Assembly (NCBI GenBank): GCA_020348305.1
Contig: CP070746.1
Span: forward strand, 4,681,933 to 4,745,932
DNA from: Desulfobacterales bacterium
Lineage (GTDB): Bacteria; Desulfobacterota; Desulfobacteria; Desulfobacterales; JAHEIW01
DNA length: 64,000 bases
Reading direction: 5' to 3'
The notes below the pieces were generated by a model. It saw only the letters and a list, made by a program, of their open reading frames with translations, ran no database searches and was not told where the DNA came from. Positions within the stretch are counted from its first letter, which is position 1. Each line of letters begins with the position of its first letter. Shown here one piece after another: positions 4,018 through 15,294 of the stretch. The translations under genes and the position numbers were made by a program.

Positions 4018-6038
4018 ATATGAAACTTGACGAACAATGTATTAACACGATTAGAATGCTTTCTGTCGATGGTGTCGAAAAAGCCAAATCCGGCCATCCC
4101 GGGATGCCCATGGGCGCGGCTGCCATGGCGTACGTGCTTTGGACACGATTTTTGCGGCACAATCCGCTTAATCCCAACTGGCCGGACAGGGACCGTTTTG
4201 TGCTCTCAGCCGGACACGGTTCCATGCTGCTTTACAGTCTGCTGCACCTAACCGGATATGAATTGCCGCTCGAGGAAATTAAACATTTTCGCCAATGGAA
4301 CAGCAAGACCCCCGGTCATCCTGAATATGGCCTTACCCCCGGGGTGGAAACCACCACCGGTCCTCTGGGTCAGGGCTTTGCCAACGGTGTCGGCATGGCG
4401 ATTGCCGAACGCTATCTGGCCGCCCACTTTAACCGTCCCGAGCATGAAATTGTGAATCACTATACCTATGGTATCGTTAGCGACGGCGATCTCATGGAGG
4501 GCGTGTCTCACGAGGCAGCGTCGTTGGCCGGGCATTTAGGACTCGGCAAACTCATTTATTTTTATGACGACAATCATATTTCCATTGAAGGTAGCACGGA
4601 TCTGACCTTTACTGAAAATCGAACCGGGCGTTTTGTCGCTTATGGCTGGCACGTCCAGCGGGTAACAAATGGAAACAATTTGAAAGCATTGGATCAAGCG
4701 CTGAGTGAGGCTCAAAAAGAAACTCAGCGGCCATCGCTGATTGCGGTCCGGACAAATATCGGCTATGGAAGCCCCAACAAGCAGGATAAAGCCAATGCCC
4801 ACGGCGAACCGCTGGGCGATGAAGAAATAAAGTTAACCAAGGAAAATCTCGGATGGCCCCTCGAACCGAATTTTCTTATTCCGCAAGAAGCATTGAAGCA
4901 TTTCCGCACCGCCATTGATAAAGGTAAAGAACTTGAGAATCAATGGTTGGCAAAATTGCAAACATACAAACAGATCTATCCCGAATTGACTGAGGAATGG
5001 CAACGATGGATAAGCGGTGAGCTGCCGGAAAACTGGCAAGAGGAGATTCCAATTTTTCCCGCAGACCCCAAAGGTTTGGCGACCAGAGTTTCATCAGGTA
5101 ACGTACTGAATGCCGCTGCATCAAAATTTACCAATTTAGTGGGCGGATCGGCTGATCTGGCCCCATCAAACAAAACTTTAATCGATGGCCAAGCGGATTA
5201 TCAGGCAAACCAATATGAGGGACGTAATCTTCGATTCGGTGTTCGCGAACACGCCATGGGTTCTATCTTAAACGGGGTGGCTTTGCATGGCGGGTTAATT
5301 CCATATGGGGGGACGTTTCTCGTTTTCTCTGATTATATGCGACCGGCCATCCGACTAGCGGCCCTATCGAAATTAAAAGTAATCTATGTATTTACCCATG
5401 ACAGTATCGGGCTAGGAGAAGATGGTCCCACTCATCAGCCGATTGAACAGCTGGCGGCGCTTCGCGCAATTCCGAATTTAACCGTTATCCGTCCGTGCGA
5501 TGCCAATGAAACCGCCCAAGCCTGGCGGGCAGCCTTGCAACATCAAAACGGTCCGGTGGCATTAGCGTTAACTCGCCAAAGTGTTCCCACCTTGAACCGT
5601 GAAAATTTTGCACCTGCTGAGAGACTGCATCAAGGTGCATATATTCTCAGTGAGGCAGGGGACCCAAAGCCGGATATCATCTTGATTGCCAGCGGTTCTG
5701 AAATTGAAGTTGTCCTCGAAGCAGCTGATAAGCTCAAAGAAAAGAACTTGGCGGTTCGGGTCGTAAGCATGCCATCCTGGGAACTATTTGAGTCCCAGCC
5801 TGAAGAATATCGCCGTCAGGTGCTGCCCACCGATATTCGTACCAAAATTGCTATAGAAGCGGGAAGCCCCCAAGGCTGGGATCGCTATGTGGGCGAAATG
5901 GGCCAGGTCATCGCGCTAAATCATTTCGGCGCGTCAGCCCCCTACAAGGTGTTGTATGAACAATTCGGGATCACCGCCGATCGAATCGTAGAAAAAGCGC
6001 TGGCGCTGATTGAAAAAATAAAAAAGGATGAGGAGTGA
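4014..6038 (+). CDS. tkt: Transketolase
   Basis: Thiamine-diphosphate enzyme that moves two-carbon units between pentose, heptose and triose/hexose phosphates. The 674-residue length is normal. The ThDP motif ([15 protein letters not shown] through DDN) is near residues 154-185, the pyrimidine-domain motif [17 protein letters not shown] near 460, and a C-terminal transketolase domain follows. It starts with ATGA overlapping the VTT gene, after a purine-rich GAGGAGAAGAGGAG tract. An in-frame ATG two codons later is an alternative start. Transaldolase begins four bases after the stop, so tkt-tal-rpiA form one non-oxidative pentose phosphate operon. Confidence 0.97.
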
Positions 6039-10886: not shown

Positions 10887-12143
10887 ATGTCGAGAATTGT
10901 TATGACAACTGCAAACCGCATTACAAAAAATAAGGACGGATCGTTAAATGTACCGCATACCCCAATAATTCCATTTATTGAAGGGGATGGTATCGGCACA
11001 GACATATGGCCGGCTGCACGCCTCGTGTTGGACAGCGCCGTTCACAAAGCATATGGTGGCCAAAAAAAGATTTCCTGGTTCGAAGTGTTGGCAGGAGAAA
11101 AGGGGTTTCAAAAAACAGGCAGCTGGCTTCCCGACAAAACCCTGGACCAAATTCAAAACCACGTGGTGGCCATTAAGGGGCCGATGACAACCCCGGTGGG
11201 CAAAGGAATTAGAAGCCTCAACGTTGCCATTCGCCAGAAACTGGATCTTTATGCCTGCGTACGTCCGGTAAGATATATCGACTCGGTGCCGAGCCCGGTG
11301 AAACATCCTGAGAAGATTGACATGGTGGTCTTTCGAGAAAATACCGAAGATTTATATGCCGGTATCGAATATCAATGCGGTAGTCCGGAAGCCGATAAAG
11401 TTCGATCGTTTTTCAATGAACAAATGGGAACTTCTCTACCCCCAGATTCAGGCATCGGCATCAAACCCATTAGCGAAAAAAACACCAAACGCCTGGTGGC
11501 AAGTGCCATAACCTATGCGCTTGAAAACAATCTTTCAAGTGTCACATTGATGCACAAAGGCAATATTATGAAGTTTACGGAAGGGGCCTTTGCCAAGTGG
11601 GGTTACGAGGTGGCGATGGAGCGATTTAGTGATCAAACCGTAACTGAAAAGGATCTATATGAGAAATATGAAGGAAAGCCACCGAAAGGTAAGGTCGTCA
11701 TAAAAGATCGTATCGCCGATATGCTGTTTCAGCAGGTGCTGCTGCGACCGGATGAATTTGATGTGATCGCCACACCGAATTTAAACGGAGATTACCTCTC
11801 AGACGCCTTAGCCGCTCAGGTGGGCGGGTTGGGCATGGCACCCGGCGCAAACATCGGTGACCAATGTGCGGTGTTTGAAGCCACCCATGGTACGGCTCCC
11901 AAATACGCCGGTCTGGACAAAGTCAACCCGAGTTCCTTAATCTTATCAGGCGTTATGATGCTCAACTACATGGGATGGAAAGAAGCGTCGGACTTAATTT
12001 GGCAAGCACTGGCAGCCACCATAAAAACAGGAATCGTCACCTATGACCTTGCTCGCCAGATAGAAGGTGCCAAAGAGGTCAAATGCTCGGAATTTGCTCA
12101 GGCGATTGTAGATAATATATGCAAGAATCGACAAAATCTCTAA
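10887..12143 (+). CDS. icd: Isocitrate dehydrogenase (NADP-type, Icd)
   Basis: Oxidatively decarboxylates isocitrate to 2-oxoglutarate. The sequence closely follows E. coli Icd throughout: [23 protein letters not shown] (containing the serine that AceK phosphorylates in enterics), [43 protein letters not shown] and HGTAPKYAG. The frame is open back to 10752, but that would overlap acnA by about 100 bases. The ATG at 10887 gives 418 residues against 416 for E. coli; an ATG at 10902 is the other candidate. Neither has a strong ribosome binding site. No aceK is seen nearby. Confidence 0.95.
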
Positions 12144-12193
12144 GTTTCAGTGAATTTTGAGGTTGACAGCAAAAGTTAAAGGAGAAATCTTTT

Positions 12194-12526
12194 ATGGAGA
12201 CCTATTACAATCCCGAAGATCTTCCAAAGTTTGAAGAAATAGGAAAAGAAGCACCCGCATTAGCTCAGAAATTTTTTGATTATTACAATGCCGTTTTTGC
12301 TGAGGGAGAATTAACAGAAAGAGAAAAAGCACTAATCGCTTTAGCAGTAGCGCACACCATCCAATGCCCATATTGTATCGATGCCTATACTCAAGCCTGT
12401 CTGGAGAAAGGATCCCACCTGGCGGAGATGACAGAAGCAGTTCATGTTGTCACAGCTATCAGGGGTGGCGCTTCTCTGGTGCACGGTATTCAAATGCGCA
12501 ATATTGCTCAAAAGTTATCCATGTAA
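12194..12526 (+). CDS. AhpD/carboxymuconolactone-decarboxylase-like protein, ArsS partner
   Basis: A 110-residue single-domain protein of the AhpD-like fold with redox motif C58-P-Y-C61, followed by IDAYTQACLEKG and the helix TAIRGGASLVHGIQM. This sequence type is typically found next to ArsS-like radical SAM proteins, and here it is 23 bases upstream of one. AhpD-like proteins use the CxxC pair for thiol-dependent peroxide reduction; the role in this pair is not known to me. AAAGGAG at 12179-12185 precedes the ATG. Both genes probably share a transcript. Confidence 0.8.
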   Translation: METYYNPEDLPKFEEIGKEAPALAQKFFDYYNAVFAEGELTEREKALIALAVAHTIQCPYCIDAYTQACLEKGSHLAEMTEAVHVVTAIRGGASLVHGIQMRNIAQKLSM

Positions 12527-12549
12527 AAAGATTGAAATTTAGGGCTAAA

Positions 12550-13578
12550 ATGTCATCAACAAAATCACTACCTGTTACTGTAAAAGACACGAATGAAGGG
12601 ATAACGAATGTCTTGCCATTCAAAGATATTGTGCCGTTCCATTTGACCCTCACTAAACATAATCTCAAGTTAGTCCGAAATAAAACGCAAACGTTGCAGA
12701 TTAACCTGGGATTTCTCTGTAATCAGACATGTCATCACTGCCATCTGAATGCCGGACCAGGTCGCAAAGAAAACATGGATCTGGGCACTGTCAACGCAGT
12801 GGTTAGCTACGCTGAACGAGGCGGTTTTGAAACAATTGACATTACCGGCGGGGCTCCTGAATTAAATCCTCATCTTCCCAATCTGGTCGAAAAGATTTCC
12901 CCTTATGCAAAAAGAATTATGCTGCGTTCCAATCTCTCCGCCTTAAACGAGCGGCTAAAAAATTTGGCGGATTTGTTGAAATCTCAAGGCGTGGTCATTG
13001 TCGCGTCATTTCCTTCTTTAAATTTAGCTCAAACCGATTCACAGCGCGGAGAGGGCATTTTTCAAGAAAGTATAGAAGTTCTAAAAAAATTGAATGACAT
13101 AGGCTATGGACCCAATGGTTCGGGTTTGGAACTTAATTTGGTCTCTAATCCTACGGGGGCATTTCTTCCTCCCTCCCAGGAACAAATTGAAAAGAGATTC
13201 CATCAGATTCTGGAGAACAAATGGGGCATTCGATTTAATAATCTTTATAATTTCGCAAACGTACCGCTGGGAAGATTTCGACAATGGCTGTTGAAGTCAA
13301 GAAATTTTGAGAAATATATGAAAAAACTCTTTTCCAATTTCAACCCCTGTGCTGTTGAGGGGCTTATGTGTCGAACGCTTGTCTCTGTTTCATGGGATGG
13401 ATATCTCTATGATTGCGACTTCAACCTCGCAGGAGGACTTTTCATGGGCGGGCGAAAAATTCATGTTTGTGATATGAATGGTCCCCCGGAGCCGGGAGCT
13501 TATATTGTGACCGCTAACCATTGCTATACCTGCACAGCTGGTTCTGGGTTTACCTGAGGCGGAGCTATAGAAATCTGA
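12550..13578 (+). CDS. ArsS-like radical SAM protein, predicted selenoprotein (UGA at 13555)
   Basis: Radical SAM enzyme with the cluster motif C57-x3-C61-x2-C64 (GFLCNQTCHHCH) and a cysteine-rich C-terminal domain of the DUF3641 type. Read conventionally it stops at 13557 after 335 residues, ending HCYTCTAGSGFT. Family members as I remember them end in CTAGxGSSCGG. Here the in-frame TGA at 13555-13557 falls exactly at the last cysteine and is followed by GGAIEI and a TGA at 13576-13578. So Sec at residue 336 and a 342-residue product are proposed. A hairpin immediately downstream fits a bacterial SECIS. The frame is open upstream to 12364, but ATG 12550 avoids overlapping the AhpD-like gene. 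ArsS homologues act in arsenosugar synthesis; no arsM is nearby, so the substrate is open. Confidence 0.75.
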
Positions 13579-13588
13579 GTTCAGGTTT
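13571..13588 (+). promoter_or_regulatory. Candidate bacterial SECIS hairpin
   Basis: Bases 13571-13577 (AAATCTG) pair with 13582-13588 (CAGGTTT): seven pairs including one G-U, closing an AGTT loop at 13578-13581. The loop begins 20 bases after the UGA at 13555-13557 and has a G in its second position. Both features agree with the known bacterial SECIS rules (small apical loop with an early G, roughly 16-37 bases from the UGA). The final UGA stop lies inside the hairpin. Confidence 0.6.
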
Positions 13589-13630
13589 GATCCGTTTTTT
13601 CAAAGCAAATATCATTCGAGGATGAACAGA

Positions 13631-14125
13631 TCATCCGGTATCCTGCTGCATATCGATTATGGGTTGAACAAATTGAGATTCCGTGTCCCACGGAAACAAT
13701 ATCCAGGTGTCCTGGCTGACTTCGGTAATGAACGTATCAACCAATGGTCGACCTTCCGGTTTGGCATAGACGGTGGCAAAGTGAGCTTTGGGCAGCATGT
13801 TTCTGACGATGCGGGCCGTCTGACCGGTATCAACAAGATCGTCGATAAGCAGCCAGCCGTCACCATCCATATCTACTGATTTCAGTATCTTGATGTCGCC
13901 CTGGTCCTTATATTCATAACTGGAAATACATACGGTATCCACCAGCCGGATTTCCAACTCACGAGCAATAATTGACGCAGGGACCAGACCGCCTCTGGTA
14001 ATTGCGACAATTCCCTCCCAGTTTCTCATATCCACCAGGCGCCAGGCCAGGGCCTTTGAATCCCGGTGGAGTTGTTCCCAGGAAATGGGAAAGGTCTTCT
14101 TATATCGTTGTTCATCTCCAGGCAT
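13631..14125 (-). CDS. gpt: Xanthine (xanthine-guanine) phosphoribosyltransferase
   Basis: Converts xanthine or guanine plus PRPP to the nucleotide. The sequence tracks E. coli Gpt: [31 protein letters not shown], the PRPP loop [32 protein letters not shown] and [10 protein letters not shown]. An ATG at 14125 preceded by GGAGAGGTGG is the better start; the frame can be extended to a TTG at 14140. It is the last gene after a nucleoside-type ABC transporter on the same strand, which suggests salvage of imported purines. Length is 164 residues against 152 in E. coli. Confidence 0.92.
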
Positions 14126-14187
14126 AGACCACCTCTCCAAACAGAGAGCTAAAGTTCAGGTAAAGTATCATTTTGTATACGTTCACA

Positions 14188-14339
14188 GGTTCAGAGTTCA
14201 CCGTTCAGGGTTACCTTGTCTCAATATCCTCAAATCGTTCTTTTCTTATGCCTTTTTCTAGATAGCTTACGAATCAACGGTCCTAAACCTTTTAATCCTG
14301 AACCCCAGAACCGTGAACCTCTGAACCGTGAACGGTTAC
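14188..14339. repeat. Inverted-repeat intergenic element
   Basis: The gap between gpt and the permease gene holds GGTTCAGAG (14188-14196) and its reverse complement CTCTGAACC (14319-14327), with further 'GTTCACCGTTCAGGG / CCGTGAAC' type repeats around them. No ORF is supported here. It looks like one of the REP-like elements scattered through this window and could cap the transporter mRNA. Confidence 0.5.
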
Positions 14340-14340
14340 A

Positions 14341-15294
14341 TCACTTCTCCTCTCGCATATAAGATTTTGCCAGCGCGCTTGGTGCCCCGATACGCTTGCT
14401 TAAGGCTTCCCACCATGTCAAAACAACTAAAACAAAAACTGTGGCCAGATAAGGCAGCATATTTAGATAAGAGGCCGGAATTGTTGTTCCGGATGCCTGC
14501 AGCCTGAACTGCACGGCATTGATGCCGCCGAAAAGAATAGCGCCCCAAATAGCCCTTGCCGGATTCCACATAGAGAAGATCACGAGCGCTATGACGATCC
14601 AGCCTCTTCCTCCGGTGATATTCTCGGTCCAGCCGGGAGCATAGGAAAGAGAGAGATGGGCGCCGCCGATGCCCACCAGCATACCACCGAAAATCGTATA
14701 CATGTAACGGACTTTACCAACATCAATTCCCATGGCATCGGCGGTTTGCGGGTTTTCCCCCACGGACCGAAGATTCAAACCGTCGCGTGTTTTGTAGAGA
14801 TAAAACCAGGATACCGGCAACAGTACATAGACAATATAGGTGAGGATATCCTGGTTGAATACGGCCCCAAATATAGGCATCAGGCTGAATACCGGTATCG
14901 CTATCGGCTCAAATTTGGACCCTACAAGTCCGACCAGATAGCCCGAGTTTGATTCCGGTCCGAGCCTTTGCCCAAGAAAACTCGCCATACCGGACCCAAA
15001 CAGTGTTATGCTCAGGCCGCTGACCACCTGATTGGCGCGCATCGTAACCGAAAGAAATGCATGTAAACTGGCCAGCGTTCCGCCCACCAGCATCGCCACC
15101 AGGATGCTCAAAAACAGGTTGCCGGTATAGTAAACGGTGGCAAACGATGTCACCGCACTCATCAGCATCATGCCCTCAATGCCCAGGTTGAGAATCCCTG
15201 AACGTTCGGTATAGATCTCACCGATCGTGGCATACATCAGAGAGGTTCCCGCTCGAAGTGTTATTGCCAGAAGTGATGCGACCAATTGAATCAT
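14341..15294 (-). CDS. Nucleoside-type ABC transporter permease (BPD_transp_2 family)
   Basis: A 317-residue inner-membrane permease with 8-9 hydrophobic segments. It has the family's conserved opening, YATIGEIYTERSGILNLGIEGMMLM, around residues 22-45 (shown here as family motif GILNLGIEG) and SVGENPQTADAMGID in the middle. This is the second permease of the BMP-type transporters (NupQ/YufQ-like), which import purine nucleosides or related compounds. It follows the first permease by about 160 bases and precedes gpt. ATG is the first base triplet of the frame. Confidence 0.88.
   Translation of the reverse strand: MIQLVASLLAITLRAGTSLMYATIGEIYTERSGILNLGIEGMMLMSAVTSFATVYYTGNLFLSILVAMLVGGTLASLHAFLSVTMRANQVVSGLSITLFGSGMASFLGQRLGPESNSGYLVGLVGSKFEPIAIPVFSLMPIFGAVFNQDILTYIVYVLLPVSWFYLYKTRDGLNLRSVGENPQTADAMGIDVGKVRYMYTIFGGMLVGIGGAHLSLSYAPGWTENITGGRGWIVIALVIFSMWNPARAIWGAILFGGINAVQFRLQASGTTIPASYLNMLPYLATVFVLVVLTWWEALSKRIGAPSALAKSYMREEK

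Follow-up and report, generated by a model that had tools for sequence, protein, structure and literature searches.

Enzymes of the ArsS family use a radical SAM cluster to cleave SAM and attach the adenosyl moiety to an arsenical. In NCBIfam the family is modelled as TIGR04167, under the name 'arsenosugar biosynthesis radical SAM (seleno)protein ArsS' (rSAM_SeCys). A literature search on ArsS paired with selenoprotein terms returned no match, and TIGR04167 turned up in two selenoproteome reviews, where 'Radical SAM domain protein, TIGR04167' stands among the predicted selenoproteins with AAR34688.1 as the example (PMC13188914; PMC9312934). The newer of the two gives the motif GxxU for TIGR04167 and credits Zhang and Gladyshev 2005, its reference 13 (PMC13188914). 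An ArsS enzyme was studied by Cheng et al. 2021, as cited in PMC12159101. Here we describe an ArsS-type gene in a 64,000-nucleotide stretch of a Desulfobacterales genome (contig CP070746.1), referred to below as the window. Judged from its sequence and that of its relatives, the gene almost certainly encodes an ArsS-family radical SAM enzyme with selenocysteine (Sec) in place of the last conserved C-terminal Cys, decoded via SelB and a downstream hairpin and ending at the TGA at 13576-13578. Because TIGR04167 is already catalogued with the selenoproteins, the window gene adds a member to an established selenoprotein family: Sec in TIGR04167 has been described before, and the present case, though correct, is ordinary.

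Gene model and neighborhood

Translated from its ATG, the frame runs ...HCYTCTAGSGFT up to a first TGA, continues as GGAIEI and stops at a second TGA (Table 1), in coordinates and reading exactly as given by the first-pass annotation, which had worked from the letters of the window. The translation contains the radical SAM motif CxxxCxxC as CNQTCHHC (PF04055, 45 bits) and the C-terminal tail CTAGxGxx(C/U) as CTAGSGFTUGG. Scored against the NCBIfam profile of TIGR04167 (cut-off 300 bits), the protein reached 368.1 bits when cut at the first TGA versus 378.6 bits when read through, and the read-through version filled the profile to position 303 of 303. DUF3641 likewise rose from 153.5 to 163.9 bits on read-through, with completion of the Pfam profile. 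The rise in score together with the completed profile supports the gene model that includes Sec. Counting against the Sec reading, a protein ending at 13557 would retain nearly the whole domain. It had also been claimed that standard gene calling would cut the redox motif short; this held for mechanical ORF calling, which stops at 13557, and did not hold for the NCBIfam model, which extends beyond the Sec position.

Table 1. Features of the ArsS-type locus, in positions of the window
Feature	Coordinates	Strand	Basis and remarks
ArsS-family radical SAM/DUF3641 gene, predicted selenoprotein	12550..13578	+	342 aa, one of them Sec; coordinates include the stop codon; TIGR04167 over cut-off, PF04055, PF12345
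In-frame TGA, probable Sec codon (GFT-U-GG), aligned with the last conserved Cys of the family	13555..13557	+	49 TGA rows, 97 Cys rows
Predicted true stop codon, TGA here, replaced by TAG or TAA in several relatives	13576..13578	+	Frame translation, relatives
Predicted SECIS hairpin, 7 bp, AGUU apical loop, overlapping the true stop codon	13571..13588	+	Fold, rules, covariation
AhpD-like/carboxymuconolactone decarboxylase partner, TIGR04169, CPYC motif, without in-frame TGA	12194..12526	+	

The gene immediately 5' of the ArsS-type gene matches TIGR04169, a peroxidase-like protein of the AhpD group associated with arsenosugar biosynthesis and the usual partner of the ArsS family. Farther upstream lie aconitase and isocitrate/isopropylmalate dehydrogenase genes, and downstream, on the opposite strand, phosphoribosyltransferase and ABC transporter genes. 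An Rfam scan of 12100-14400 with E up to 1 gave no match, and no near matches were found among plasmids. Scanning for other large TGA read-throughs in the window returned five sites. No obvious redox motif accompanies the TGA at any of them, and the site at 6036 is the junction of two separate genes.

Cys and TGA alternate at one column

Relatives were drawn from GTDB genome contigs and by searching for the family in relatives and throughout the phylum. Tree rows numbered 146 of the 157 loci, each admitted only if a pattern matched Cys or TGA in the column that holds TGA in the window; the remainder includes truncated contigs. The column held Cys in 97 of the 146 aligned rows and TGA in 49 (window included), counts that reveal two alternatives at a single column, with rare others possible given that the pattern required Cys or TGA, and whose ratio is distinct from a frequency, TGA-bearing matches having been fetched deliberately. 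The first-pass annotation had placed the TGA on the last conserved Cys of the family and proposed an alignment with Cys-containing homologues; that alignment, run here, set Cys opposite the TGA. In the strict set, 63 Cys rows read GSS-C in this context and 41/41 Sec rows read GFT-U. Residues past the TGA are also kept: GG comes first, then A/S/T/E, then usually I. Such conservation of GG(A/S/T/E)I is unlike sequence beyond a genuine stop.

Two of the collected loci had a C-terminus unmatched by the Cys and TGA patterns. One is a weaker TIGR04167 match with an internal TAG (L185, G375:C11; 225.7 bits), the other a borderline match (L188, G220:C1; 304 bits).

The Sec clade, its partner gene and its possible reaction

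A quick tree grouped 47 Sec rows of the GFTU type with a single Cys row, and the branch parting them from the rest was long (0.70 changes per column, SH-aLRT 100). Two Sec rows (GSTU) fell outside this main Sec clade with five GSSC rows in between, so either Sec arose repeatedly or intervening lineages lost it. In the two outlying rows, L089 and L144, the TGA stands in another context (GST-U-T/A-G), possibly a separate Sec gain. A Cys form with the context GFT-C-GG (L186, G122:C8) is nested in the Sec clade, and the DNA downstream of it lacks the CCTGAGTTCAGG hairpin; it is probably a Sec-to-Cys reversion.

We infer that the Sec (GFTU) clade shares the ArsS reaction. It is conceivable, if doubtful, that the Sec reading is right and the clade has nevertheless left arsenosugar chemistry, acting with the AhpD-like partner on some other thiol-reactive or metalloid substrate. 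The long branch would fit such a departure, as would sequence identities of 54-77% between the window protein and the Sec set versus 41-50% to Cys forms, and the occurrence of two or three copies of the ArsS-type gene in some genomes. So would the distribution of the TIGR04169 partner, which adjoins 39/41 Sec versus 17/65 Cys members, the latter count being possibly low, as some contigs were short and the Cys forms more distant. Against a change of substrate, the window protein scores over the cut-off of the same NCBIfam equivalog, TIGR04167, and the genome holds one ArsM homologue over cut-off, though ~2 Mb from the ArsS-type gene. That the GFTU selenoproteins are a separate enzyme paired with TIGR04169, with a reaction unlike that of Cys ArsS, we consider unlikely.

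The downstream hairpin

A seven-pair hairpin with an AGUU loop, starting 14 bases after the TGA and with its loop 20 bases after it, had been proposed as a bacterial SECIS element. Folding of these 18 nt confirmed the geometry: AAAUCUG-AGUU-CAGGUUU begins at the 14th base after the TGA, and its loop (13578-13581) is separated from the TGA by 20 nt. The bSECIS model calls for a loop of 3-9 nt, a stem of 4-16 bp, G in loop position 1 or 2, a distance of 16-37 nt from the UGA and an MFE <= -7.5 kcal/mol (PMC13188914). The window hairpin has a 4-nt loop with G second, 7 bp, a distance of 20 nt and, for 13555-13600 with an outer helix included, -13.0 kcal/mol (7/200 shuffles as good); the 18-nt core alone folds weakly, at -4.3 kcal/mol (0/200 shuffles as good). 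About 8% of shuffled downstream sequences yield a hairpin equal to it under the SECIS rules. By itself the window hairpin is unremarkable, and its weight rests on conservation in relatives. For a longer stretch, 13545-13610, the minimum-energy fold differs and pairs the TGA region (ACCUGA/UCAGGU). As a conserved structure this alternative was dismissed by eye, the base preceding the TGA varying (C/A/G/T) with no matching downstream changes.

Among Sec relatives, the RNA past the TGA carries CCTGAGTTCAGG or a variant of it at a nearly constant distance. A hairpin score of at least 9, that is, of the window's quality or better by the loop-G, stem and spacing rules, was found in 34/41 Sec versus 9/65 Cys members. 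In 22 ungapped members, 85.7% of cells were paired and the covariation score was 0.313 versus 0.157 shuffled (0/500 reaching it); slid controls all fell below the hairpin in both measures. The outer three pairs vary, the outermost being unpaired in 14 of the 22 aligned members, and the inner four are nearly fixed. Relatives with TAG near the end have the stem rebuilt from other letters, for example CGGCCU-AGGU-AGGCCG. The proposed fit to bacterial SECIS rules was thus borne out, with compensatory changes in Sec relatives.

For most relatives with Sec, the SECIS hairpin spans the true stop codon, so that bases 3' of the stop are conserved as RNA.

Selenocysteine machinery

According to the first-pass annotation, absence of the selenocysteine machinery from the genome would speak against Sec. 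Genes for all four components were found: tRNA-Sec (selC; 75.2 bits, anticodon TCA), SelA (612 bits), SelB (387 bits) and three selD genes over cut-off (G000:C1:5302463, 6095286 and 1261750; L018, L019 and L020). Two of the three SelD carry an in-frame TGA of their own near the N-terminus (GAGUASK and TCGUASK) and are likely selenoproteins themselves.

Discussion

The Cys alignment, the SECIS rules, the covariation and the sel genes together uphold the proposal of a Sec codon in this gene. It is most improbable that translation simply ends at the TGA at 13555 and yields an ArsS without the last Cys-GG tail: ORF callers do terminate there and a hairpin on its own is not rare, but 49 rows have TGA at a single column that is otherwise Cys, GG(A/S/T)I is kept past it, the hairpin is conserved with compensatory changes, and the genome has the machinery for Sec.

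The Sec reading of 13555-13557 stands on comparative evidence; the role of Sec and the reaction we infer. Under the Sec reading, SelA and SelD would make the Sec-tRNA, SelB would bind the hairpin at 13571-13588 and bring Sec-tRNA(Sec) (SelC) to the UGA, and translation would stop at the second UGA, giving a product that ends ...CTAGSGFTUGGAIEI. Going by what is known of the family, the CNQTCHHC cluster would cleave SAM and the adenosyl group would pass to an arsenical. The CxxCTAG...U segment may serve to bind or to reduce either the substrate or an auxiliary cluster, and the AhpD-like TIGR04169 protein is a presumed redox helper.

The case indicates that a true Sec codon can be found by reading raw sequence alone, and the gene is a clean added example for annotation. 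It raises the question of why one ArsS clade uses Sec and retains an AhpD-like partner.

Compared with known systems, the TrsS radical SAM (seleno)protein (NF045646) resembles the window protein in coming from a radical SAM family that includes Sec members and differs in being a distant match (21.4 bits versus a cut-off of 490). Cys-containing ArsS, presumably the form of the enzyme studied in 2021, shares the radical SAM CxxxCxxC, DUF3641 and the CxxCTAG tail; it has GSSC where the window protein has GFTU, and lies outside the long-branched Sec clade. With the TIGR04167 ArsS (seleno)protein, the window protein shares the family score over nearly its whole length, the GxxU Sec near the C-terminus and the AhpD-like partner gene, and there is no notable difference between the two.
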